A DNA stretch of 64,000 bases from Leptolyngbya sp. 'hensonii' (lineage in GTDB: Bacteria > Cyanobacteriota > Cyanobacteriia > GCF-001939115): the NCBI RefSeq assembly GCF_001939115.1, contig NZ_MQTZ01000001.1, positions 1 through 64,000 on the forward strand, written 5' to 3'. The notes beneath the pieces were generated by a model. It was not told where the DNA came from, made no database searches, and saw nothing but the letters and a program-made list of their open reading frames with translations. This document shows positions 12,737 through 29,322 of the stretch, piece by piece (position 1 is the stretch's first letter; each line of letters begins with the position of its first letter). The position numbers were made by a program, and so were the translations under genes.

Positions 12737-15211
12737 TTAACCAAGCTCCACTTCTTCCAAAGGCTTGGTAATAAATCCTCGGTGCTCATCATAGTGACCC
12801 TCCCATGTGGCGACACCAAGATATTTAGGCAACCAATTATGCTCCTCTGTGCGCGCATTAGCCCATTTCTTAGGAATGCTAATGATGTATGGCTCTTTTC
12901 GGTATTTTTCAGATGAATCGAGAATAGTTTTAACATCGGGCAAATCCCTATCCAAAACGCAGGGTATGGCAAAGTCATCCGTATCACGAAAACTACCAGG
13001 AGTTGCGTAGTAACCACTGTCTAGAAAACGAGCACTGCCGTCAGGTTCTCGTTCAGGTGGAGCATACCGCTCCAGTGCTTCGGCAAATTGGTGTTGACTG
13101 ATATCACAGTCCTTAAACTCTTGCAAGAAAGCTGCTGCCACCTTCAACTCATCTTTTTGATAGGGCAAATGACTAGGAGGAAAATAGGTGTGTAATCTAG
13201 CTCGAAATTCTTGCCCCCTGGCCAGATGACGATTAGCCCTTCCAAACCGCTGCACCAACGAGGGAATTGGCGCAACTTCCGTGATCAATACGTCTGCGTC
13301 CAAATCTAAGCTCATTTCACAAACCTGAGTCGTGACGGCGATCGCCGCCTTTCGTTCTTCTGAACCCTTCTGAATTGCAAACGCAGCAACTGTCTTAGCA
13401 TGGACAGCTTGACGATCGCACAACCGAAAACGACTGTGATAGGTCAGTACTTCGGCATCGAGATCTCGTAGCGCAGTAGTGAGCTTTTGGGCGATCGTCA
13501 GACACCGGTCCACCGTGTTGACCACCCAGAGAACTCGCTCACCTTGCTGATAAGCACTCACTGCTTGATTAAAGGCTGCCTCAAAATTAGCAACAGGTTC
13601 AAGATAATAGCGGGGATGCTTTTCCTTCTCCTCTAAATCAGGCAAAATCTCTCGGTCTGCTTCAGTGGGATAAGCTTTTAGCCCCACTTTCTCCAGGCGT
13701 TTGCGCCGCGACGGTGGCAGCGTTGCCGTCATACACAGCACTGGAAGGTCAAAATTCTCCAAAAAGCTGACCAGAGAATCAAACATTCGCTGATCAAAGC
13801 TATGAACTTCATCAATAATAACTGCACTATCTGCCAGAACAGGCAATAAACAGAGACTTTGGTAACTGTGTTCCACAAAGCCAAGAAATTGATCAACTGT
13901 GGCACTAAAAAAGCGACGTGACCAGAAGCCTAATGCATAGAGTCGTTCATCTGCCTGAAAATCCTTACCCTGAATGGCATCACTTGGATTCTCTTGCATT
14001 GCTTCCAGTTCATAACGGGCAGTTCCCGTAATCAAAGCTGCATCTGCTTCTGGTGCCCAACCCACATAATCCCGGAAGCCTTCCGTAGCTGTACCTCTGG
14101 TGGGATACAGAAAAATCACTTTCCCGATGTTGTACTCCCGCGATTGCTGCTCTGCCCACTTCCAGGCTCCCAGTGTTTTTCCAGCTCCACAAGCAGCCAG
14201 TAGCAACGCTTTAGAACCCTGTTTGGCTATCTGCTTTTGAAATTCCTGTAGTGTTTGGTCTTGGAGAACTTCAAGTTGAGCAGGGGTATGTTTCGTCAGA
14301 AATGCTTTTTGGTCAAAGGCTTGCCCTGCCTGACGTGCCCTGATTTGTCCAATCCGAGGATTAATAATGGCGGTAGCAATTTGGTCTTGACCAATGGCAT
14401 CAGCATGGACAACGGCTTCGATCCAATCGGTAATATCTTTATTTTCTCGCACCAATCCTGAAGCAGCAGCATCCGCCACGATCAACCCGGCCTTGATCGC
14501 AACCAGGAGCGATCTCCGTGGGTTGTCTGCCCCAACATTTCGCTTAAAGTGGCGACCTGCATCTTTTCCTTTTTTATAAGCCTGGTCCCAGATTGAGCCT
14601 GCCTTCCAACTGGCTTGGGGTAGGACTGGAATATCTGTTAGGGTAGCGATCGCAGCAATACGCTCTAAAATTCGATTGACTTCATCATGGTTGAGATACA
14701 ACGTGACCGACGTTTTGAGGGTTTGAGGCTGACACCAGCGATAATTCTTGAGTTTTTCACTGGTTTCTTTGTCGTCTTTCACCGTAATCTGACTTTCAGA
14801 AGCCTTCAAGTGATGCGATAAAACAGCAGCAGTGATGACATCAATATCCAGGTTTGAATTTTGTGCTAACCAATTACGAACTTCCGACAAACATAGCACT
14901 AATGCACTCAAATGCTCATGACGCAGGGTTTGAGCTTTGAATCCTGGAGTTGAGACGGCTGCGTAAAAATCCTCATTTGCTTTGCCAATGTCGTGAAACA
15001 AAGCTGCTATTCGCAAATTGAGCAGGAATTTTTCCTGAATCTCCCGACCTTGAATCTTGAAAAGGCGACACCAATTCTGTCCCCACCGACCATCCAACCG
15101 AAAGATTTGACTAGCACAGGTTTCTGTATCGCGCAAATGAGCTTCCAGCGTAATCACCCGATCTCCACGCTTGCTCTTTGCCAATAACTGCTCAGGAAGA
15201 TTAGGCATCAT
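12737..15211 (-). CDS. cas3: Cas3 nuclease-helicase
   Basis: An 824-residue Cas3, which is recruited by target-bound Cascade and shreds the DNA. The N-terminal HD nuclease has AALFHDIGKANEDF and AVLSHHLKAS. The SF2 helicase has motif I AACGAGKTLGA, a DEVH box (IIDEVHSFD), motif III MTATLPPS and motif VI QRFGRANRH. The ATG at 15211 was chosen since GGAGG precedes it and it overlaps the cas6 end by 11 bp; the longer frame to 15271 would run deep into cas6. The C-terminal EEVELG-stop sequence is duplicated twice downstream. Its place inside the effector operon is normal for this subtype. Confidence 0.96.
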   Translation of the reverse strand: MMPNLPEQLLAKSKRGDRVITLEAHLRDTETCASQIFRLDGRWGQNWCRLFKIQGREIQEKFLLNLRIAALFHDIGKANEDFYAAVSTPGFKAQTLRHEHLSALVLCLSEVRNWLAQNSNLDIDVITAAVLSHHLKASESQITVKDDKETSEKLKNYRWCQPQTLKTSVTLYLNHDEVNRILERIAAIATLTDIPVLPQASWKAGSIWDQAYKKGKDAGRHFKRNVGADNPRRSLLVAIKAGLIVADAAASGLVRENKDITDWIEAVVHADAIGQDQIATAIINPRIGQIRARQAGQAFDQKAFLTKHTPAQLEVLQDQTLQEFQKQIAKQGSKALLLAACGAGKTLGAWKWAEQQSREYNIGKVIFLYPTRGTATEGFRDYVGWAPEADAALITGTARYELEAMQENPSDAIQGKDFQADERLYALGFWSRRFFSATVDQFLGFVEHSYQSLCLLPVLADSAVIIDEVHSFDQRMFDSLVSFLENFDLPVLCMTATLPPSRRKRLEKVGLKAYPTEADREILPDLEEKEKHPRYYLEPVANFEAAFNQAVSAYQQGERVLWVVNTVDRCLTIAQKLTTALRDLDAEVLTYHSRFRLCDRQAVHAKTVAAFAIQKGSEERKAAIAVTTQVCEMSLDLDADVLITEVAPIPSLVQRFGRANRHLARGQEFRARLHTYFPPSHLPYQKDELKVAAAFLQEFKDCDISQHQFAEALERYAPPEREPDGSARFLDSGYYATPGSFRDTDDFAIPCVLDRDLPDVKTILDSSEKYRKEPYIISIPKKWANARTEEHNWLPKYLGVATWEGHYDEHRGFITKPLEEVELG

Positions 15212-15875
15212 AAAACCTCCAGGCACGCGGGAAACTGGTGAAGACGCCACATCCCATACGATGCTTACCACCTAATCCAAATTGCTGAAGTTTGATAGAA
15301 TCTTCATCGCTCAGATCGGTAATGACCAGGCTAAATCCAACGACTGAATAGGTTTTGATTTTAATCGCTTTACGGGCTGGCTCCCCATCTTCATTCAGAG
15401 GGAGAATCAGATTCCCTTGAATTCCCAAAGCATCTAGTTGGCGCTGAGCAGCTTCTTTAAAGGGTTCTGGCTCCTGGAATTTCTTAATCGTGACAATCCG
15501 AGAGCGCAACTTATCAACCGGATACAACGGAAAAATCTGAGGAATGCTCAACTGAATGCGATGATTGCCGATCGTTAGTTGCTGTCCAGCCAGCGGCAGT
15601 ACTAACGCAATTTGTGCGGGCTCATAAGGCAAACGGATTCTCAGTTTCGACTGCCGGGAAAGCTCAATCTTGCCCTGGCCATCCGGCTTGCCTGAAATTG
15701 TTTGAATACTTAGCTCTTCCTGCTCATGAATTTGCGGGCAAAGATGGGCGATCGCACTATACAGCCCATACCCATGATCCGCAGGCAGCGTCTGCCCGAT
15801 GACACCAAAGCTCAACTCCACATAAGGTAGACTCAAGCCCTCCCTTACCATTGATGATTGATCCGTTGCTAGCAC
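15201..15875 (-). CDS. cas6: Cas6 (Cmx6-like) crRNA endonuclease
   Basis: A 224-residue Cas6 of the Myxan type, which would cut the ATGCC/GGCGT hairpin of the repeat transcript. The C-terminal glycine-rich loop typical of Cas6 is clear (QQFGLGGKHRMGCGVF), preceded by IKIKTYSVVGFSLVITDLS. The start is a GTG at 15875 with GGAAGG in front. It heads the cas6-cas3-cas8-cas7-cas5 operon and overlaps cas3 by 11 bp. The catalytic His cannot be assigned by eye. Confidence 0.88.
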   Translation of the reverse strand: MLATDQSSMVREGLSLPYVELSFGVIGQTLPADHGYGLYSAIAHLCPQIHEQEELSIQTISGKPDGQGKIELSRQSKLRIRLPYEPAQIALVLPLAGQQLTIGNHRIQLSIPQIFPLYPVDKLRSRIVTIKKFQEPEPFKEAAQRQLDALGIQGNLILPLNEDGEPARKAIKIKTYSVVGFSLVITDLSDEDSIKLQQFGLGGKHRMGCGVFTSFPRAWRFYDA

Positions 15876-15968
15876 CTTTTACCTTCCTTAGAAAGAATTT
15901 GTTCATTTGTACTGCACCCCCAGTAGAAAAACAGTAAATCCAGGGAATTTTTTTACGATCGCCCCCGA

Positions 15969-16580
15969 CTACCCCACAACCACCAGCACCTCTGCCGCCA
16001 GCAGCTCCAACTTCGGAAACATCCCTGAGACGATCGGCTCATTGGCCCGTACCATCTGCCCCCGATACTCCCCATCCACCAGCGAGTAGACCGTCACCGT
16101 CGGTTGCTTCGGCCTTCCAATGTGACGCCACCCCCCCAGTGCCCGATAATCCACAATCCAATACTCCCCAATCCCCAGCGCCTCATAATCCTCCAGCTTC
16201 TTGGCATAGTCATCCTGCCAGTTCGTGCTCACCACCTCCACCACCAACCGGGCCGAAGCTCCCCGCACGATCGTCGAAGCCGTCTTCCACAGAGGTTCTA
16301 CCTCCAATTGGGTGCGATCGAGCACAATCACATCCGGGACATACCCATCCAGATCACTCGCTGGTTTCACACAGCAGGTATTGGGAATAAACCAGGGCAG
16401 ATTCAGCCGCTCAATTTCCCGATCCAGCTTGCGGGTGATCAGACTGGCAATTTCCTCATGGTCTCCCCTGGGTCGCACCTCTCGTACCTCCCCATCTATC
16501 AGTTCATAGCGTTTACCATCCTCTGGATACTCAGCCAGAAACTCTGTGAAAGTCTTTAGCTGTCGCAGGACTTGAATCAT
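15969..16580 (-). CDS. Uma2 family (DUF820) putative endonuclease
   Basis: A 203-residue Uma2 protein with the family marks KRYELIDGEVREV, YVPDVIVLDR, ARLVVEVVSTNWQDDYAKKLEDYEALGIGEYWIVD. The acidic residues of the presumed PD-(D/E)XK site are present. It overlaps the WYL regulator by 4 bp (ATGA), so the two form one transcription unit, and it ends 93 bp before cas6. The link to CRISPR is positional only. Confidence 0.88.
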   Translation of the reverse strand: MIQVLRQLKTFTEFLAEYPEDGKRYELIDGEVREVRPRGDHEEIASLITRKLDREIERLNLPWFIPNTCCVKPASDLDGYVPDVIVLDRTQLEVEPLWKTASTIVRGASARLVVEVVSTNWQDDYAKKLEDYEALGIGEYWIVDYRALGGWRHIGRPKQPTVTVYSLVDGEYRGQMVRANEPIVSGMFPKLELLAAEVLVVVG

Positions 16581-17554
16581 GGTTGACCTCCCTTGTAGGA
16601 ATTCTGCATCTGGGATACCTCCGTTTTAACCAATTGCACCAGCTCCGGCGGCTCCCGCACGATCGCCCCCTGGCCATACCCCAACACCCATCGCTTCAGA
16701 TCATTCATCCCCCGCACCATCAGGTGTAACGTCAGCGACCCATCCGGATGTTCGTGAATTTCCTGGGTCGGATGCCAGCGCCGCTCCCGGATATAGGGAG
16801 CCGTCGGCGCATCAAACCAGATCACAACCGGGAGCGGCACCCCACCTGCCTCATGCTGAAAAATCATCTCCAGATGATCTCTGGCATCAAACGTAGGGTC
16901 AGGGACAAAAGTTTCTGCCAGCACTTGCAAGCGCTTAATCCGATCGACCCGAAACCAGCGCATCTCTTGCCGATTGTGGCAGTAGCCAATCACATAGGGA
17001 TTGGTGCCTCGATAGATATGCAGCACATAGGGGTCCAAATTACGATCAGACGTTGCATTGCGACCTGCTGTGTAATACGTCATGTGAACCGTTTTGTGAT
17101 TTCGACAGGCATCCTCCAACTGATGCCAAACCTCCGGGTCCAGATTGATTTCTGCCCCGGAGCGGAACAAAATCCGTTCTTCAGCCACCTGCTGCAGGTC
17201 TACCCAGGTTTGCTCAGGGAGCCGTTCTGCTAATCGAGCAATGGCCGATCGAAGCTCCAGACTGTAAGCAGACCCGGCATAGGCTTCTAGCATCCTGGCC
17301 CCCAATGTCAGGGCAAAGAGTTCACCCCTGGTCAGGGGAATGGTCGGCAACCGCCAGTCTGGATCGGTGTAGTAATAGCCCCTGGCCTTGCTCCACTCGA
17401 TCGGAGCCTGGTAGCGATCGCGCAGAAACGTGAGGTCATTACGAATGGTGCGCTCACTGACCTCCACTGCCTCCGCCAGACTGGTGGACGTTTGCCGTCT
17501 CCCCTGTCGCAATAATCCGTCGATTTCCAGTAGCCGTTCCAGATGCCTTGACAT
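16577..17554 (-). CDS. WYL-domain transcriptional regulator
   Basis: A 325-residue regulator with an N-terminal winged helix-turn-helix of the DeoR/YafY type (LLEIDGLLRQGRRQTSTSLAEAVEVSERTIRNDLTFLRD) and a WYL ligand-sensing domain around 150-240 (VHMTYYTAGRNATSDRNLDPYVLHIYRGTNPYVIGYC, then RWFRVDRIKRL), plus a C-terminal WCX-like part. WYL proteins are common regulators of phage-defence and CRISPR loci and can sense nucleic-acid ligands. Standing first in the direction of the cas operon, it is a good candidate to control it; direct evidence such as an operator is not visible. Confidence 0.9.
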   Translation of the reverse strand: MSRHLERLLEIDGLLRQGRRQTSTSLAEAVEVSERTIRNDLTFLRDRYQAPIEWSKARGYYYTDPDWRLPTIPLTRGELFALTLGARMLEAYAGSAYSLELRSAIARLAERLPEQTWVDLQQVAEERILFRSGAEINLDPEVWHQLEDACRNHKTVHMTYYTAGRNATSDRNLDPYVLHIYRGTNPYVIGYCHNRQEMRWFRVDRIKRLQVLAETFVPDPTFDARDHLEMIFQHEAGGVPLPVVIWFDAPTAPYIRERRWHPTQEIHEHPDGSLTLHLMVRGMNDLKRWVLGYGQGAIVREPPELVQLVKTEVSQMQNSYKGGQP

Positions 17555-18307: not shown

Positions 18308-21022
18308 ATGATGGATCCTGGAGTAATTTTGGCCAATGGTCTACAGCCTGAGTCAGTTCTGTCTACTCCAGAGCAATTATTGCCTCTGGGAACAAACAGC
18401 ACAAGCCTTGCCTCTTCCAGTGAGCAGGTGATTCTGGAATGTAGCCATTGGTTAAGTTTTCATCGGGTTTGGGGGCAGTTTCCAACCCCAGTATTAACCG
18501 CGATCGCCCAGTCATTGAAATGCTTCCGTGTAGAACCCCAAACGTTGATCTACCAGGAAGGACAAAAAAACATTGGGCTATACCTGCTCAAGTGGGGCAC
18601 AGTCGAGATCTACCGGCTTTCCCCGATTGGGAAATCTCTGATTCGCTATCGCAGTGCTGGAGAGCTATTCGGTTATGCATCCCTGATGGCAATCCCAGAA
18701 AACGGCAGGCACCAGACGCAAGCGATCACCCTCACGGCTAGTGAAATCTGGTTTTTGCCCGAGGCTGAGTTTCGTCAGTTGATGCAACAGTATGCCGAAT
18801 TTGAACGGATGTTCAATACGCTGTTAGCGCAAGATTTAAATGCCTTCAGTGCCCGCATTGCTCAAGAGCAACGCCGGATTCAAGGGTTACAGTCTTATAT
18901 TCAAGCGGTTCCAACTGGAGCAAAAATCCTGGGCCACAGCAAAGCCAGTCAAAAGTTGGCAGAACAACTGGATCAAGCTGCTGACAGTCTAAAACCTGTC
19001 TTGTTTCAAGCCCAACCAGGAACTGGAAAAACCTTTCTGGCCGGACTGATCCATTCCCGTTCTGGAATCGCAGCCCAACCTTTTGCTGAATTAGATTGTA
19101 CCAAGTTACCCCGATCAGAAGATGGTAGGCTCAATACCGATTGCTTATTTGGCAGAGTCGCTGGACAGACCGGCGTCCTCGAACTGCTGGAGCGGGGAAC
19201 CCTACTGCTGAATAATGTCCAAGTTTTGAGTGAGGGCGATCGGGCACGCCTCACCCATTACTGCAAAACGGGTAGCATCCTACCGAATCATGGTCTCAGT
19301 GGTTCTAATACTCTGACAACCGAGCCTCCCAAGCCGATTCAGTCTTGGGTACGCTTAATCCTCGCCGCACCGGACAAACTAGAGTTGCCAGAGGTAGACG
19401 CAATTCCGATCAAGCTGTTCAGCTTACCCCAGCGTAAAGCAGATATTCCAGATTTTGCCCGTTATTTCCTGGCCCAGTTTTGTCAGGCCCACAATCGTCC
19501 GCTGCTGGCTCTGGATCAGTCTGATCTGCGTCGCTTGATTAGCTATGACTACCCTGGCAACCTCACAGAACTGGCAGAAATCCTGCATCGCGCAGTGATC
19601 ATGACGCCACCAGGGCAAGTTGTGATTTCAGAACAAGCCCTCTGGTCGGTGCAGTCTGCGAAGAACGCCTTCCGAGTGGATTTGCTCACCCATGTGCCCT
19701 GGCTGCGGCAACTATTGCTGAGTCGCTGGTACCCAGAGGGTATCTGGATGGTGATGATGGCATTTTTTGTGCCCGTCACGATCGCCGGGTTGATTGGGCC
19801 TCAGACCCGCGAGAGTAGCGTGACCCTCAATCTCTTTTGGGCCTGGTGGTGGCCGGGTTATCTGTTTCTATTTGTCTTTGTCGGTCGGCTCTGGTGCGCC
19901 GTTTGCCCCTTTATGATCACAGCAGAATGGCTCCGCCGTTTTTCCCTCTGGCTGTTTCCGCGTCAGCAACTGACCTGGAATACCCAATGGCTGAATCGAT
20001 GGGGAGCCTGGATCCTGTTTGGTGGCTTTGTGGCAATTTATTTGTGGGAAAAGCTGTGGGATTTGCCCCATCATGCGCTGCTTTCTGCTTGGTTGCTCCT
20101 GGCGATTACAACTGGAGCAGTCATTTTTAGCCTGATTTATGAGCGGCGGCTCTGGTGTCGCTATTTGTGCCCGATCGGTGGCATGAACGGGATGTTCGCC
20201 AAGCTGGCAATGGTGGAGTTGCGATCGACCCAACAGGTCTGCGGTAGCCAATGCAGCACCTTTGGCTGCTATAAAGGCAGTGATGCAACTCCTGTTAACT
20301 TTACAGATGCGTTGCCTACGGAAGGTCAGGCCACGGGGGGCTGTCCGCTTTACACCCATCCGGCCCAATTGCAAGACAACCGAGACTGCGTGCTCTGTAT
20401 GACCTGTCTCAAAGCCTGCTCCCATCGATCGGTGCAGCTCAACTTGCGGTTTCCCACAGCAGACCTCTTAGACCACCCTCAGGGTTTTGGAGCGGAAGTC
20501 GCACTGCTGCTGCTGCTGTTTGGTGGCGTATTGATGCACCATACTGAGCGAATTTTAGGATGGTTGGGCTTCCACAATATTCCCATTGACGCGAATCATT
20601 TACTGACCAGTACGCCGATCGTCCTTGCCCTGCTCAGCATTCCCGCTGCGTTGACCTATCTGACTCACACGATCGCCCGCTTCCTTGACCCCAAACAACC
20701 TGTCTATCTCACGGTCATCTACGCTTATTTACCCTTTACCCTGGCCGCAAACTTAACCCATTATGTCCCAGCGGGCGTGATGGAGGCGGGTCAAATTTTG
20801 CCTGTCCTGGCGCGAACCCTGGGCTTTAGCGGCGCAGGTTTGCCAGCCCTCACCTGGAGTGCAGATGTGGCAGCATTTCTTCAAGGCGTCACACTCCTCT
20901 CCGCTCTGGTTTTCAGTATCTATCCGCTGTTACGCATTACCAAACGCCCCTTGCTCAGCAATCTGCCCCATTTGATCCTTATGCTTGGGTTTACAATTTT
21001 CTTTTTCAAGCTGATGATATGA
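18308..21022 (+). CDS. cNMP-binding/AAA+-like/polyferredoxin fusion protein
   Basis: About 904 residues with three parts. First, a Crp-type cyclic-nucleotide-binding domain (IYQEGQKNIGLYLLKWGTVEIYR, then SAGELFGYASLMA). Second, a sigma-54-activator-like AAA+ domain with a good Walker A (QPGTGKT) but a Walker B of LLLNN instead of LDE, and no GAFTGA loop, so it probably neither hydrolyses ATP nor contacts sigma-54. Third, a NapH/NosR-like membrane part with several helices and Cys motifs CAVCP, CRYLCPIGG, CGSQC and CVLCMTCLKAC for 4Fe-4S centres, then more helices. It may couple membrane electron flow to signal sensing. ATG at 18308 or 18311 is likelier than the TTG at 18281. Confidence 0.8.
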   Translation: MMDPGVILANGLQPESVLSTPEQLLPLGTNSTSLASSSEQVILECSHWLSFHRVWGQFPTPVLTAIAQSLKCFRVEPQTLIYQEGQKNIGLYLLKWGTVEIYRLSPIGKSLIRYRSAGELFGYASLMAIPENGRHQTQAITLTASEIWFLPEAEFRQLMQQYAEFERMFNTLLAQDLNAFSARIAQEQRRIQGLQSYIQAVPTGAKILGHSKASQKLAEQLDQAADSLKPVLFQAQPGTGKTFLAGLIHSRSGIAAQPFAELDCTKLPRSEDGRLNTDCLFGRVAGQTGVLELLERGTLLLNNVQVLSEGDRARLTHYCKTGSILPNHGLSGSNTLTTEPPKPIQSWVRLILAAPDKLELPEVDAIPIKLFSLPQRKADIPDFARYFLAQFCQAHNRPLLALDQSDLRRLISYDYPGNLTELAEILHRAVIMTPPGQVVISEQALWSVQSAKNAFRVDLLTHVPWLRQLLLSRWYPEGIWMVMMAFFVPVTIAGLIGPQTRESSVTLNLFWAWWWPGYLFLFVFVGRLWCAVCPFMITAEWLRRFSLWLFPRQQLTWNTQWLNRWGAWILFGGFVAIYLWEKLWDLPHHALLSAWLLLAITTGAVIFSLIYERRLWCRYLCPIGGMNGMFAKLAMVELRSTQQVCGSQCSTFGCYKGSDATPVNFTDALPTEGQATGGCPLYTHPAQLQDNRDCVLCMTCLKACSHRSVQLNLRFPTADLLDHPQGFGAEVALLLLLFGGVLMHHTERILGWLGFHNIPIDANHLLTSTPIVLALLSIPAALTYLTHTIARFLDPKQPVYLTVIYAYLPFTLAANLTHYVPAGVMEAGQILPVLARTLGFSGAGLPALTWSADVAAFLQGVTLLSALVFSIYPLLRITKRPLLSNLPHLILMLGFTIFFFKLMI

Positions 21023-21338: not shown

Positions 21339-21974
21339 ATGGCACAAACCATTGCAGTCACAGAGATGGTTAAAAGTCTTGCCGAAGCAGAGGCAAAGTT
21401 TGGGCTGCAACGAAATTCTGACCCACAGTTTTTCCGAGAATGGGTTGATGCCTTACCATCCCTGACAGACCCAGAACTCGCTGACTTGGGGGTGATGTAT
21501 CGGCGGTTAACCTATCACCGCTCCACCAATGAACTGTTGGAGGGTTCTGTTACCCTCCTGGCAGCATCTCCCTTACTGGAACTCGCTGGCTTTTACGATC
21601 CACCTTTCAGAATGCGGTCTGAAACCGCGATCGAATGGGTGCTGAATGATGGGGAAGAAATCCTGCGAGGGCGTATTGATCTGCTGATTATGCAGAACCA
21701 ATTTTGGGTGTTGGTGGTGGAATCCAAAAAGACCAGCATTTCTGTGCGATCGGCATTGCCTCAAGCTCTAGCCTACATAATGGCAAACACGAATCCTGAC
21801 CAATTGCTCTTTGGCATGATCACGAATGGGGATGATGTGCTGTTTATTAAGTTGCTGCAACAACCCACGCCCCAATATGGCTTGTCACGAGCCTTTTCAC
21901 TCTATACGTTGCCTAGTGAAGCCCAACAGGTCTTGCAAATCTTGAAACGGATGGGTGAACTAATCACTCAATAG
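21339..21974 (+). CDS. Type I restriction HsdR-N-like nuclease-fold protein
   Basis: A 211-residue protein resembling the N-terminal nuclease region of type I restriction subunit R: IDLLIMQNQFWVLVVESKKTSISVRSALPQALAYIM carries the D...E-x-K pattern of PD-(D/E)XK enzymes. No helicase part is present, so it is not a full restriction subunit. It is a paralogue of 25701-26318, with the same layout (SLTD or PLTD early, ASPLLELAGF or LSPLLETLGF in the middle, QILKR at the end). Many cyanobacteria carry such solo proteins; function unknown. Confidence 0.7.
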   Translation: MAQTIAVTEMVKSLAEAEAKFGLQRNSDPQFFREWVDALPSLTDPELADLGVMYRRLTYHRSTNELLEGSVTLLAASPLLELAGFYDPPFRMRSETAIEWVLNDGEEILRGRIDLLIMQNQFWVLVVESKKTSISVRSALPQALAYIMANTNPDQLLFGMITNGDDVLFIKLLQQPTPQYGLSRAFSLYTLPSEAQQVLQILKRMGELITQ

Positions 21975-22146: not shown

Positions 22147-23103
22147 ATGCCAATCTACAGTGACATTACCGAAGTTATTGGTTGTACTCCTCTTGTCCGG
22201 CTGCAACGCTTACCCCAGCAGTTTGGCTGTGTTGCTGAAATGGTGCTGAAACTAGAAGGCATGAATCCAGCCAAGTCCGTGAAAGATCGGATCGCTGTCA
22301 GCATGATGCTCGAAGCAGAACGAGCGGGGCTGATTCAACCCGGAATTTCGACGATCGTGGAGGCCACCTCCGGGAATACCGGGATCGGGTTAGCGATGGT
22401 CTGTGCCGCCAAGGGCTATCGCCTGATTCTGACCATGCCAGACGGCATGAGCCAGGAACGACGGCAAATTGTTCAGGCGTATGGTGCAGAGGTGATTTTG
22501 ACTCCGGCTGAAGCTGATATGCAGGGGGCGATCTCCCATGCCAATCAACTGGTGGCAACAATTCCCCAAGCTTTTTCACCGCATCAATTCAGCAATCCTG
22601 CCAACCCTAAAATCCACTACGACACCACTGGGCCTGAAATTTGGCAGGACACCGATGGTGATATTGCCGCGTTAGTCGTCGGTGTGGGGACAGGCGGCAC
22701 GTTGACTGGTGCTGGACGCTATCTCAAACAACAAAATCCCAAGCTCCAAATTGTTGCCATCGAACCCGTAAACAGTAAGGTGCTGAGTGGCCAGCCTGCA
22801 GGCGAACATAATTTACAAGGCATTGGCGCAGGGTTTATCCCAGATGTCCTGCGAGTCGATTTAATCGATGAAATTGTCACCGTCACCGAAGCAGAGGCTT
22901 ACGAGATTGGACGACAATTGGCGCGCGTAGAAGGCATCATCAGTGGTATCTCAACAGGCGCAGCGGTCTATGCAGGATTACAAATCGGGCAGCGATCGCA
23001 CTACCAAGATCAACGGATTGTGATCATTCAGCCTAGTGCAGGAGAACGCTATCTCAGCACGGCAATGTGGGATGAGAATAGCACAGAAACTACTTCACAT
23101 TAG
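22147..23103 (+). CDS. cysK: Cysteine synthase (O-acetylserine sulfhydrylase)
   Basis: A 318-residue PLP enzyme that makes cysteine from O-acetylserine and sulfide. It has the PLP lysine in NPAKSVKDRIAVSM, the substrate loop EATSGNTGIGLA, the phosphate-binding VGVGTGGTLTGAGRYLK and the C-terminal GISTGAAVYAG. Length is normal for CysK/CysM. The next genes include an SQR-like flavoprotein, so both sulfide-using and sulfide-oxidising functions are close together. The 170 bp upstream contain no gene. Confidence 0.95.
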   Translation: MPIYSDITEVIGCTPLVRLQRLPQQFGCVAEMVLKLEGMNPAKSVKDRIAVSMMLEAERAGLIQPGISTIVEATSGNTGIGLAMVCAAKGYRLILTMPDGMSQERRQIVQAYGAEVILTPAEADMQGAISHANQLVATIPQAFSPHQFSNPANPKIHYDTTGPEIWQDTDGDIAALVVGVGTGGTLTGAGRYLKQQNPKLQIVAIEPVNSKVLSGQPAGEHNLQGIGAGFIPDVLRVDLIDEIVTVTEAEAYEIGRQLARVEGIISGISTGAAVYAGLQIGQRSHYQDQRIVIIQPSAGERYLSTAMWDENSTETTSH

Positions 23104-23736: not shown

Positions 23737-24900
23737 ATGAAAAGAATTCTGGTTTTAGGTGGTGGAATGGGGGGTGTGGAAGCTGCGATCGCCCTGACCC
23801 AAAAACTCAAGGGCGATTATCAAATTGACCTGATCTCCAACCGTGACTTCCTGTATATCTATCCCGCGTCCATCTGGCTGACGGTGGGTAAGCGCACCCT
23901 GGAAGACCTCTCAGTGCCCTTGACACAACTCGCCGAAATTCATGGCTTTAATTTCCTGCAAGAAGAGGTGAAAGAGGTCAGAGCTAAAGAACGATTGGTT
24001 CTCACGACATCACAAGAGTATTCCTATGATTATCTCATTATCGCTTTGGGTGGTTCTAAGCTAAAGCCCAAAGGTGTTGAGAATACCCTATCTATTTGCG
24101 GCTCACCATTGGATGGAATGCAAATTCAAGAGCGGTTCCTGGAGCTAGTCGAGCGGGGAGAAGGCAAGATTGCCTGCGGGTTTAGCGGTAATCCCCAGGA
24201 TGCAACGGCAGTCCGAGGTGGACCCGTGTTTGAGGTCTTGTTTAATTTCGATACCTATTTGCGGGAAAAGGGCTTGCGCGATCGCTTTGAACTCACTTTC
24301 TTTAGCCCCTCTGATGCCCCTGGAAAGCGGCTGGGGGCAGGGGGGCTGGCCCAATTACAACAATTGTTCCAGGAACGCGGTATTACTATCGTGTCTGGCA
24401 AAAAGATCAAGGAATTTACCAGCAGTGGCGTGACCTTTGAGGATGATACTCACGTCGTAACCGATCTCACTGTTTTTACACCGGGAATGACTGGCACACC
24501 TATCCTCAAGCAATCTGACCTACCCCTGACCGCAGCAGGGTTTGTCCCCGTCAGCGATACTGCACAGGTAAACGGATTTGAAAATTGCTATGCGATCGGT
24601 GACAGTTCCTATTTTGAGGGACCCGACTGGCGGGCACGACAGGGGCATTTAGCCGAAGTGATGGCACGCACGGCGGCGGAAAATGTTGCCCGACAAGAGC
24701 GTGGAGAAGCAGCAACAGCCAGCTTCCGGGAAGAGATTAACCTGCTGTGCATTATGGATACAGGCACAGAAGGTGTCTTTGTCTACCGGGATGAGAACCG
24801 AGAAATGGCACCCCGAGGAGCCTGGGCACGCTGGGCAAAACTGGCATGGGAAAAATATTACAAGTTGAATAAATTAGGAAAAGTTCCACGTCTACTATGA
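23737..24900 (+). CDS. SQR-like FAD-dependent oxidoreductase
   Basis: A 387-residue flavoprotein of the sulfide:quinone reductase/flavocytochrome c family. The FAD-binding GGGMGGVEAAIAL begins it; DYLIIALGGSK and the second FAD motif NCYAIGDSSY follow. Cysteines at about 128 (SICGSP), 147 (KIACGF) and 343 (LLCIMD) are candidates for the redox pair, but the positions differ from those of well-known type I SQR, so substrate is open: sulfide or another thiol. No transmembrane helix; the C-terminal end is basic and aromatic, suited for membrane contact. It overlaps the next gene by 4 bp. Confidence 0.75.
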   Translation: MKRILVLGGGMGGVEAAIALTQKLKGDYQIDLISNRDFLYIYPASIWLTVGKRTLEDLSVPLTQLAEIHGFNFLQEEVKEVRAKERLVLTTSQEYSYDYLIIALGGSKLKPKGVENTLSICGSPLDGMQIQERFLELVERGEGKIACGFSGNPQDATAVRGGPVFEVLFNFDTYLREKGLRDRFELTFFSPSDAPGKRLGAGGLAQLQQLFQERGITIVSGKKIKEFTSSGVTFEDDTHVVTDLTVFTPGMTGTPILKQSDLPLTAAGFVPVSDTAQVNGFENCYAIGDSSYFEGPDWRARQGHLAEVMARTAAENVARQERGEAATASFREEINLLCIMDTGTEGVFVYRDENREMAPRGAWARWAKLAWEKYYKLNKLGKVPRLL

Positions 24901-25700: not shown

Positions 25701-26318
25701 CTATACAATAACCAGACGTTTCAGGATTTGCGCGACGGCATACAGTTCATTGCCTTCAGCGGTGCTGAGGGTAAATTTGTCTGACAGGGCATAGTGGGAG
25801 GAGTCGCGATCGCATTTAACGAACAGGCAATCTTCTCCGGTAGTAATCAGAGCGAACACGGGAGAAATTGGTGCACCAACAATATAGGCTAAGGTTTGGG
25901 CGATCGCTTGTCGCACACTAAACCCATAGGGTTTACTTTCAATCACAATTAACCAGAGGCGATCGTGAATCACCAAGGCATCGATCAACCCATCCAGTTG
26001 GGTATCACCGTCTTCAATTTCAAACCGGATATATTTTTCACTCCGGACTTGGTAAGGCGGGTCGATGAAGCCCAGGGTTTCCAGCAGGGGTGACAGCAGA
26101 ATTAAGTTGACGGTACCTTCAGTGATGGCTCCGCTATCGGCGTAGTAGAGATAACGCTGTTTGAGATGATCGAGCCTTGCCTTCTCGGTATCGGTCAATG
26201 GAGGCAATAGCGCTTTCCATTCGGTGAAAAAGGTGGCATCGGTGCTGGGCACAATGCCTAGCCTCGCGTGGGCTTCGGTGAGATTGGTAATCGCTTTGGT
26301 GATACCGAGGCTAACCAT
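25701..26318 (-). CDS. HsdR-N-like nuclease-fold protein, paralogue
   Basis: A 205-residue paralogue of 21339-21974. The putative catalytic part is DGLIDALVIHDRLWLIVIESKPYGFSVRQAIAQTLAYI, with D, E and K as in PD-(D/E)XK nucleases. There is no helicase or methylase gene nearby. Transcribed opposite to its paralogue and to the SQR-like operon. Role unknown. Confidence 0.7.
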   Translation of the reverse strand: MVSLGITKAITNLTEAHARLGIVPSTDATFFTEWKALLPPLTDTEKARLDHLKQRYLYYADSGAITEGTVNLILLSPLLETLGFIDPPYQVRSEKYIRFEIEDGDTQLDGLIDALVIHDRLWLIVIESKPYGFSVRQAIAQTLAYIVGAPISPVFALITTGEDCLFVKCDRDSSHYALSDKFTLSTAEGNELYAVAQILKRLVIV

Positions 26319-27525: not shown

Positions 27526-27623
27526 TTAAAGAAGGTTACAAAATGTATTGTTCTCCCCTCAAAATTGCTTCTTGCTGGATTGCAAAAACCTTTTGCAATC
27601 CACTCAACCCTGGAGATGATCTT

Positions 27624-27836
27624 ATGGAAACAAATGTGGGTTTGCTCGATCGCGTGATCCGTGTCCTGTTAGCTTCGGTGCTGTTGTACCTGGGGCTGTT
27701 CCTCTACAGGAGTTCTGCCCTAGGCATTGGGCTGGTTGCCGCAGGTGGCATACTGCTGATAACGGCGCTGGTTGGTTTTTGCGGTCTTTATCGCCTCCTG
27801 GGCATCTACACCAACCAAACTAATAAGCAACTGTAG
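27624..27836 (+). CDS. DUF2892 membrane protein
   Basis: A 70-residue protein with METNVGLLDRVIRVLLASVLLYLGL and a second hydrophobic segment GIGLVAAGGILLITALVGFCGLYRLLGI, the two-helix DUF2892 (YgaP membrane part) pattern with its typical GxCPxY-like end as GFCGLYRLLGI. Such proteins often accompany rhodanese, SQR and other sulfur genes. ATG 27624 was chosen because GGAG lies before it; the open frame starting at 27543 adds an unrelated N-terminus. Confidence 0.85.
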   Translation: METNVGLLDRVIRVLLASVLLYLGLFLYRSSALGIGLVAAGGILLITALVGFCGLYRLLGIYTNQTNKQL

Positions 27837-27871: not shown

Positions 27872-28300
27872 ATGACTTACCACTTCAGCAAGGTTGTTGA
27901 TGCCTCCTTTCAAGAAGCGATCACCCAAGTCACCGAATCTCTCAAACAGGAAGGCATGGGCATATTGACCGAAATTGATGTGCAAGCTGCCTTCAAGAAG
28001 AAACTGGACATCGAGTTTCACCAATACAAAATTCTGGGAGCCTGTCATCCTCAAATTGCCTATCAAATGATCCAAACCGATGACAAAGCGGGTGTATTGT
28101 ATCCCTGCAATGTCGTGGTGCAAGAACACGAGGATGGCAGAGTAGAAGTCTCAGCGGTTGATCCGTTGATGATGTTCCTGTCCCTGCACAGTCCGAGAGC
28201 AAAAGAAATTGCGATCGAGGCCAGTCAAAAAATGCAACGGGTGATCGATCGCCTGCCTCAAGCAACCTTGAGTGCTTCGCAAGCTGCATACACTATTTAA
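27872..28300 (+). CDS. DUF302 domain protein
   Basis: A 142-residue DUF302 protein: YHFSKVVDASFQEAITQVTESLKQEGMGILTEIDVQ, then YKILGACHPQIAYQMI and VLYPCNVVVQEHEDGRVEVSAVDP. The pattern is complete and the length normal. DUF302 proteins are widespread in bacteria with sulfide or metal-rich habitats; the biochemical role is not known. It begins 35 bp after DUF2892 and lies 17 bp before the Rieske gene. Confidence 0.88.
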   Translation: MTYHFSKVVDASFQEAITQVTESLKQEGMGILTEIDVQAAFKKKLDIEFHQYKILGACHPQIAYQMIQTDDKAGVLYPCNVVVQEHEDGRVEVSAVDPLMMFLSLHSPRAKEIAIEASQKMQRVIDRLPQATLSASQAAYTI

Positions 28301-28317: not shown

Positions 28318-28854
28318 ATGGACGACAGTATGTCGCTCGAAAACCCATCCCTATCCCGGCGACAACTCCTCAATTTTCTAACCGGAGCGACTGTTGCTGC
28401 TACTGCTGGTTCCGCTCTCTACGCAGTTGGCAAATTCTTCATTCCTCCCGCAGAGTCAACCGGAGCAGGGGGGGCCATTCTCGCTAAAGATATTCTCGGA
28501 AATCCAATCCCAGCAAGGCAAATCTTGGCAGAGGCATCCGGAACTCGTGCCCTAGTTGCAGGTCTGGCAGGAGAACCCACTTACCTGGTCGTCCAAGAAG
28601 ATAACACGCTGGATGCTATGGGAATTGTGGATAACTGCACCCACCTGGGCTGCACCTTCCCCTGGAATCCGATGGATCAGCAGTTTCAATGTCCCTGTCA
28701 TGGCTCTCTCTATGCCCCTGATGGCACAGTAGTTCGTGGCCCAGCTCCCCTTCCCCTCAAAATTGTTCACGTTGCTGTCATCGATAACAACATTTTGATC
28801 TCACCCTGGACAGAACCCGATCCTCGCACTGGAGAAACCCCCTGGTGGGTTTGA
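28318..28854 (+). CDS. Rieske [2Fe-2S] protein (PetC-like)
   Basis: A 178-residue Rieske protein. Two cluster-binding boxes, CTHLGC and CPCHGS, are intact. The N-terminus has SRRQLLNFLTGATVAATAGSALYAVG, a twin-arginine-like signal that would stay as membrane anchor, as in cytochrome b6f PetC. It is likely an additional Rieske isoform rather than the main b6f subunit, because no petA or petB is next to it and it is grouped with DUF302/DUF2892. A perfect AAGGAG precedes the ATG. Confidence 0.9.
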   Translation: MDDSMSLENPSLSRRQLLNFLTGATVAATAGSALYAVGKFFIPPAESTGAGGAILAKDILGNPIPARQILAEASGTRALVAGLAGEPTYLVVQEDNTLDAMGIVDNCTHLGCTFPWNPMDQQFQCPCHGSLYAPDGTVVRGPAPLPLKIVHVAVIDNNILISPWTEPDPRTGETPWWV

Positions 28855-28908: not shown

Positions 28909-29322
28909 ATGAAAATTGCCGTATCCAGTCAAAACCAGACCAGCGTAACTGCCCATCTTGGACATTGTCAAAAATTCTGGATTTATGACGTAGACAACGC
29001 CACCATTCAAACCAAAGAACTGCTCAAGCTTACCAAAGACCAGAGCTTTCATGAAAGTTCCTCCAAAGACCCTCACCCACTGGATGGGATCCAGGTTCTG
29101 ATTAGCGGCAGTATGGGACGTGGCCTAGCCCGCCGTCTGGAATCCAAAGGCATTCAACCGATTATCACGCCTGAAACTGACCCGGATACAGCCATCACTG
29201 CCTATCTTGCGGGTTCTCTTGTAGTCATGACTCCAGAGGAGGTTGAGCATCACCATGACGTAGACCCACTTGTTGTCCCTCAGGTCGATCGAGACACTGG
29301 GAGTAGTAGCTGCCACGAGTAA
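28909..29322 (+). CDS. NifX/NifB-C-like iron-cluster-binding protein
   Basis: A 137-residue protein of the dinitrogenase FeMo-cofactor biosynthesis (NifX/NafY) fold: KIAVSSQNQTSVTAHLGHCQKFWIYDVD at the start and GIQVLISGSMGRGLARRLESKGIQPIIT later. The end is His/Cys rich (EEVEHHHDVDP, SSSCHE), which may bind metal. No other nif gene is present, so it is probably one of the stand-alone members of unknown role. It follows the Rieske gene by 54 bp on the same strand. Confidence 0.85.
   Translation: MKIAVSSQNQTSVTAHLGHCQKFWIYDVDNATIQTKELLKLTKDQSFHESSSKDPHPLDGIQVLISGSMGRGLARRLESKGIQPIITPETDPDTAITAYLAGSLVVMTPEEVEHHHDVDPLVVPQVDRDTGSSSCHE

Follow-up and report, generated by a model that had tools for sequence, protein, structure and literature searches.

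The gene at positions 18308-21022 of the Leptolyngbya sp. 'hensonii' DNA analysed here (a stretch of 64,000 nucleotides, referred to as the window) raises the question of what use a AAA+ domain resembling that of sigma-54 activators may have in a protein that begins with a Crp-type cNMP-binding fold (CNBD) and ends in a nine-helix membrane part. The gene is a single uninterrupted reading frame of 904 codons on the forward strand, with its stop codon at 21020-21022 and with TTG 18281, ATG 18308 and ATG 18311 as candidate starts. Its features are as follows:

18308..21022, +, complete class 1 gene (904 aa), encoding CNBD, pseudo-AAA+ and membrane polyferredoxin, from the open frame and from homologues that share the fusion
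18527..18793, +, residues 74-162, cNMP-binding fold of the Crp type without the canonical Glu/Arg for phosphate binding (PF00027, 6.9e-16; column counts)
18926..19630, +, residues 207-441, AAA+ domain of the NtrC type with its lid, predicted to be unable to hydrolyse ATP (Pfam; AlphaFold; Foldseek)
19010..19033, +, Walker A, AQPGTGKT (aligned relatives)
19145..19198, +, site of the deleted GAFTGA loop 1, with LFG and GT only 17 residues apart (alignment)
19196..19222, +, degenerate Walker B, GTLLLNNVQ, Glu changed to Asn family-wide (aligned relatives)
19664..21019, +, membrane polyferredoxin part, residues 453-904, four helices, Fe-S loop and five helices (helix prediction; stand-alone relatives)
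19895..19906, +, invariant CxxCP motif, C530 and C533 (alignment)
20156..20170, +, invariant CxxxCP motif, C617 and C621 (alignment; Fer4_5)
20240..20419, +, two-cluster ferredoxin-like loop, C645, C649, C654, C679, C694, C697, C700 and C704 (alignment; Fer4/Fer4_10)

Pfam matches above the gathering score covered cNMP_binding (residues 74-162), Sigma54_activ_2/Sigma54_activat (207-319), AAA_lid_14 (375-441) and Fer4_5 (594-633). The same fusion, along with the same motif losses, was common to 98 aligned relatives, each 700 aa or longer and drawn from many cyanobacteria, some of them encoded on single-contig genomes and plasmids. Because the fusion is kept in these 98 relatives, the gene is not a frame-joining error, and the union of Crp-type sensor, AAA+ domain and membrane polyferredoxin that the earlier note had read from the letters alone is real. 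A merger of two genes through sequencing error, which that note had raised against itself, can be practically dismissed, even though the halves occupy separate frames in two relatives (G006 and G223). The latter frames (loci L008/L030 of G006 and L146 of G223) are split near residues 388-488, and could be either assembly errors or genuine splits.

The AAA+ assignment of the middle part was supported by profiles (PF00158, PF14532 and PF25601 all above cut-off) as well as by predicted structure. The AlphaFold model had a pLDDT of about 90 over this domain, and a Foldseek search against the PDB returned sigma-54 activators as all of its top matches, with TM-scores of about 0.75-0.82 for the isolated AAA+ domains of NtrC1, PspF and FlrC. 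The middle part is thus AAA+-like and of the sigma-54-activator kind, as had been proposed. With sigma-54 activators (NtrC1, PspF, FlrC, NifA) the family shares the AAA+ fold, the lid, Walker A and the order of secondary structure elements, but it differs in having GAFTGA deleted, the catalytic Glu lost and, in class 1, the sensor II Arg mostly lost. Moreover, the 18308-21022 protein has no DNA-binding HTH, is fused to a membrane protein and comes from a genome without sigma-54.

These motifs were counted in an alignment of 57 relatives (34 of class 1 and 23 of class 2, the two paralogous classes described below). The P-loop Lys was invariant throughout, and Walker A was intact in class 1 (GKT in 34/34, GK(T)F invariant) whereas class 2 carried a degenerate GEPGLxKD in which the Lys was kept. 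None of the 57 proteins had the Walker B Glu, which was replaced by Asn in nearly all of them, while the Walker B Asp was kept in 18/34 class 1 proteins and in no class 2 protein. The earlier claim that the Walker B acids were lost therefore stands for the 18308-21022 protein (which reads NN) and for class 2, but not for all of class 1. The loss of the GAFTGA loop was borne out by the spacing between LFG and GT, at 17 residues in 54/57 relatives versus 25 in CapR/DmpR (an 8-residue deletion). The sensor II Arg was gone in 33/34 class 1 and kept in 16/23 class 2 proteins. Since the P-loop Lys is invariant and the catalytic Glu is absent, we read the AAA+ domain as a non-hydrolysing nucleotide-binding module; replacement of the Glu with retention of the Asp in 18 class 1 proteins is the pattern of binding without hydrolysis, and the class 1 domain looks like a nucleotide binder that would be unable to hydrolyse.

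As the earlier note had assumed for cyanobacteria, no sigma-54 (PF04552) was found in the Leptolyngbya sp. 'hensonii' genome, in a search whose control matched E. coli, B. subtilis and others; the two best PF00158 matches of this genome were the 18308-21022 protein and its paralogue. With no GAFTGA, no catalytic Glu and no sigma-54 in the genome, the domain is shown, as far as its sequence goes, to be without what a sigma-54 remodelling motor would need, and a use apart from sigma-54 is supported. A role in nitrogen assimilation as an NtrC/NtrX regulator, as database annotation would have it, is very improbable. The AAA+ part does score against NifA and NtrX models, and a plasmid homologue is labelled 'nitrogen assimilation regulatory protein', but full-length model scores all fell far under their cut-offs, receiver and HTH domains as well as sigma-54 are missing, GAFTGA and the catalytic Glu are lost, and the neighbourhood (see below) is one of sulfur rather than nitrogen.

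In Crp/PKA-type domains, a canonical Glu and Arg contact the cyclic phosphate. In the family alignment, neither a Glu nor an Arg was conserved around columns 122-138 of the CNBD, so that of the cNMP-binding domain named in the earlier note the fold holds but the usual phosphate-binding residues do not. Because these contacts are missing, cAMP or cGMP is an unlikely effector, and both were disfavoured as ligands. The protein resembles Crp/Fnr-type regulators in the cNMP-binding fold and its N-terminal position, yet differs from them in the unconserved Glu/Arg and in the C-terminal HTH, as Pfam revealed no HTH or other DNA-binding domain in the 18308-21022 protein, including the region after the CNBD.

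In the membrane part, all 12 Cys listed above were invariant in 57/57 proteins of both classes, which is consistent with three predicted 4Fe-4S clusters, for which they would suffice, and Fer4/Fer4_10 matched 50-54 of the 57 family members; the Fe-S loop itself was modelled by AlphaFold at low confidence (pLDDT below 50). The NapH-like membrane section with at least three 4Fe-4S motifs was thereby corroborated. Helix counting would place all Cys motifs on the cytoplasmic side if the N-terminal half is cytoplasmic. In picocyanobacterial forms (L139-L143) the CNBD was lost and the central AAA+ was partly deleted in some, while the membrane Fe-S part was retained, which suggests that the functional core is the membrane part. 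In terms of sequence conservation, the membrane part with its 12 invariant Cys is shown to be the conserved core as well.

Membrane ferredoxins of the NapH/MauN type (TIGR02163), to which CcoG and NosR are similar in kind, share with this part four helices, the CxxCP and CxxxCP motifs and then a two-cluster ferredoxin loop. However, the 18308-21022 protein matched TIGR02163 at only 38.9 bits (6.8e-10; cut-off 213.05), has five extra C-terminal helices and a large nucleotide-binding N-terminal half, and Nap genes were not seen near class 1 loci. Neither sequence search nor fold search found a solved structure related to the membrane part. Stand-alone proteins annotated as '4Fe-4S binding protein' in Deinococcus ficus (27% identity, 3e-32, end to end) and on haloarchaeal plasmids correspond to the membrane part over its full length, C-terminal helices included, at 24-27% identity but have no CNBD or AAA+, the haloarchaeal copies also being without several of the 12 Cys. 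On the D. ficus plasmid (L160 6039-8320), a His-rich, membrane-anchored protein that is probably metal-binding precedes the stand-alone relative, with DUF3105 and DUF305 genes in the region. A separate membrane Fe-S protein of ~950 aa (G000:C17:219825, locus L003), which weakly resembles the NapH-like helices (28%), occurs in other cyanobacteria too.

The likeness of the membrane part to NapH might indicate a reductase of metals (e.g. Cu or Fe) or a maturation factor of the CcoG/NapH kind that builds or repairs Fe-S or copper enzymes, with the class 1 copy operating under sulfide, where metals precipitate. The CxxCP/CxxxCP layout with two more clusters does resemble that of NapH, a similar layout is found in CcoG, and the D. 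ficus relative adjoins the His-rich protein and DUF305/DUF3105 region. Nevertheless, we consider this role quite unlikely, given the NapH score far under its cut-off, the lack of a counterpart to the membrane part in the fold search of solved structures, and the neighbours of class 1, among which no copper genes recurred and RND and ArsP pumps appeared in a few loci only.

Leptolyngbya sp. 'hensonii' carries one gene of each class, the class 1 gene at 18308-21022 and a class 2 gene (C41, 42% identity). A tree of the membrane part split class 1 from class 2 plus the picocyanobacterial forms, with node supports of 0.65 for class 1, 0.99 for class 2 and 0.87 for class 2 with picocyanobacteria. 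Both classes together were present in 204/291 cyanobacterial genomes sampled, and class 1 (taking matches with 55% identity or more) in 37/291; class 2 is core-like and class 1 accessory. The class 1 gene of Synechococcus sp. SynAce01 nested within a Leptolyngbya/Nodosilinea clade, which suggests transfer. Within class 2, a genus-level variant (L021, 1121 aa; G403; G410) has a longer frame of about 1130 aa, and G024/L021 has an additional CNBD-AAA+ copy (32%) that precedes the usual one within a single frame.

A survey of gene neighbourhoods across genomes, as the earlier note had suggested, separated the two classes. Among loci with enough flank (48 of class 1 and 26 of class 2), cysK lay on the same strand within 1 kb downstream in 35/48 class 1 versus 0/26 class 2 loci, at a median gap of 35 bp and with some genes overlapping. 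The remaining 13 class 1 loci, several from heterocystous strains, had no cysK within 1 kb, and cysK is therefore not obligatory. The window itself contains the following island genes downstream of 18308-21022:

22147..23103, +, cysteine synthase A gene cysK, the third copy of this genome (TIGR01139, 424 bits, above cut-off)
23737..24900, +, SQR-like FAD flavoprotein (profile match, below the SQR cut-off)
27543-27836, +, YgaP-like TM/DUF2892, recurring near class 1 elsewhere
27872-28300, +, DUF302, recurring near class 1 elsewhere
28318-28854, +, PetC-like Rieske, recurring near class 1 elsewhere
28909-29322, +, NifX/NafY-like, recurring near class 1 elsewhere

This cysK is 57-58% identical to the other two copies in the genome, and it lies 1.1 kb from 18308-21022 because two small ORFs intervene.

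Other recurrent neighbours of class 1 were rhodanese, NUDIX, PetC-like Rieske, ArsR, SQR-like, TauE and CydAB, followed by NifX-like, DUF302, DUF3122, Tll0287-like, HO, HemN and PsbA. In loci of at least 12 kb, at least one of ten sulfide/low-oxygen markers (rhodanese, SQR, ArsR, TauE, DUF302, Rieske, NifX, PsbA, CydA, Tll0287) was present in 21/40 class 1 versus 0/21 class 2 loci. Individually, only cysK and rhodanese were enriched, and Rieske and NUDIX marginally so, with p-values that are optimistic because related loci were treated as independent. Two plasmid-borne class 1 copies, one of them on a plasmid typed as conjugative, repeated the pattern with cysK, PetC and PsbA nearby. The class 1 gene of the window belongs to a transferable sulfide/low-oxygen island, in which it is usually encoded just upstream of cysK, and the earlier note's hint at low oxygen or sulfide gains support from the cysK operon and from the rhodanese, ArsR, SQR-like, alternative PetC and variant D1 neighbours. 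No conserved neighbours of class 2 were found, and its wide occurrence without sulfur neighbours indicates a basic function broader than sulfide. Docking of the C-terminus into CysK was considered, as CysK partners end in Ile and Ile is the last residue of the 18308-21022 protein, and was rejected because conservation of this residue is lacking and its position is at the end of a helix.

The PsbA proteins of the islands were of more than one kind. In two Pseudanabaena islands (L045 16986-18056 and plasmid L159 18857-19930), D1 was missing several residues at what we take, by motif, to be the Mn4CaO5 ligand positions. The substitutions were D170E, E189K, H332R and E333S, and D342 was missing; judged from these residues, the variants would fit a switch away from water oxidation. 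The D1 proteins of L084, L046 and L158 kept D170, E189, H332 and E333 and look like a low-oxygen type. The list of D1 Mn-cluster ligands was taken from PMC8002359, which also reports only standard D1 in the sulfidic-lake strain Phormidium pseudopriestleyi FRX01. As the FRX01 genome nonetheless carries a class 1-cysK pair (L065), variant D1 is no constant companion of class 1. Class 1 islands share SQR-like, ArsR and variant psbA genes with the known cyanobacterial sulfide/anoxygenic sets (sqr, psbA variants) of Geitlerinema PCC 9228 and FRX01, in whose genome papers (PMC5061849, PMC8002359) a term search found no mention of cysteine synthase/cysK, cyclic nucleotide, 4Fe-4S, sigma-54 or Crp.

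That the cytoplasmic half contains two domains of a classic signalling kind, and that ArsR and MerR regulators are often encoded close to class 1, could point to a membrane-tethered redox sensor or regulator whose Fe-S part would sense sulfide, oxygen or the quinone pool. The CNBD/AAA+ half would then be the output and bind RNA polymerase, CysK or another regulator. In addition, one study (PMC5318462) took slr1529, a putative Synechocystis relative whose orthology to class 2 is a guess, to be a transcriptional regulator and found the metabolite changes of its mutant at 72 h to be among the largest. We nevertheless regard such a sensor as unlikely, since Pfam revealed no HTH or other DNA-binding domain, GAFTGA is gone and stand-alone membrane relatives exist. 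Moreover, the membrane part persists in picocyanobacteria although their proteins have shed the CNBD and some of the AAA+, which makes the supposed output dispensable. A search upstream of class 1 found no shared palindromic operator.

Our preferred explanation, held with slightly less than even confidence, is that the protein is a membrane Fe-S electron carrier gated by the nucleotide-binding pseudo-AAA+ domain, with class 1 serving life with sulfide or low oxygen. The pseudo-AAA+ would bind ATP or ADP via its invariant P-loop Lys, and the CNBD may act alongside it as an assembly or ligand domain. Together, they would act on the membrane part by altering its conformation or oligomeric state, so that energy or redox state might switch the passage of electrons between carriers in the cytoplasm and the quinone pool of the membrane. 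In the island, the role of class 1 is probably to sense sulfide and sulfane sulfur or to handle electrons for them; in this way, sulfide would probably be built into cysteine during a shutdown of photosystem II. The gating of electron transfer by nucleotide or effector that the earlier note had envisaged would be consistent with a P-loop Lys kept invariant without the catalytic Glu. More tentatively, and with appreciable doubt, we propose an evolutionary route in which a sigma-54-activator AAA+ domain, in a lineage without sigma-54, was turned into an ATP/ADP-sensing gate on a membrane Fe-S carrier. In this view, class 2 would belong to the core equipment of oxygenic phototrophs, and class 1 would be a plasmid-transferable version for sulfide or anoxia that works with its own cysteine synthase.

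A literature search found no paper describing the family, despite its occurrence in 204 of the genomes sampled, and the papers on slr1529 hold expression or mutant-list data only. Current names, such as nitrogen assimilation regulatory protein and sigma 54-interacting regulator, are misleading. If the preferred explanation is true, it would add a nucleotide-gated membrane redox protein to the inventory of cyanobacterial electron transport and provide an example of a transcription motor converted to a redox regulator, while the island of class 1 and cysK would offer a genetic handle on cyanobacterial sulfide survival.

Two further observations concern the surroundings of the gene in the window. 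Visibly similar small ORFs at 21339-21974 and 25701-26318, the first of which matches HSDR_N, lie on opposite strands and flank the cysK and SQR-like genes, and are possibly mobile cargo. Just upstream of 18308-21022, CRISPR-associated genes occupy 12737-17554 on the reverse strand, comprising Cas3 (HD and helicase, 844 aa), Cas6 (224 aa) and, at 16577-17554, a WYL-domain regulator.
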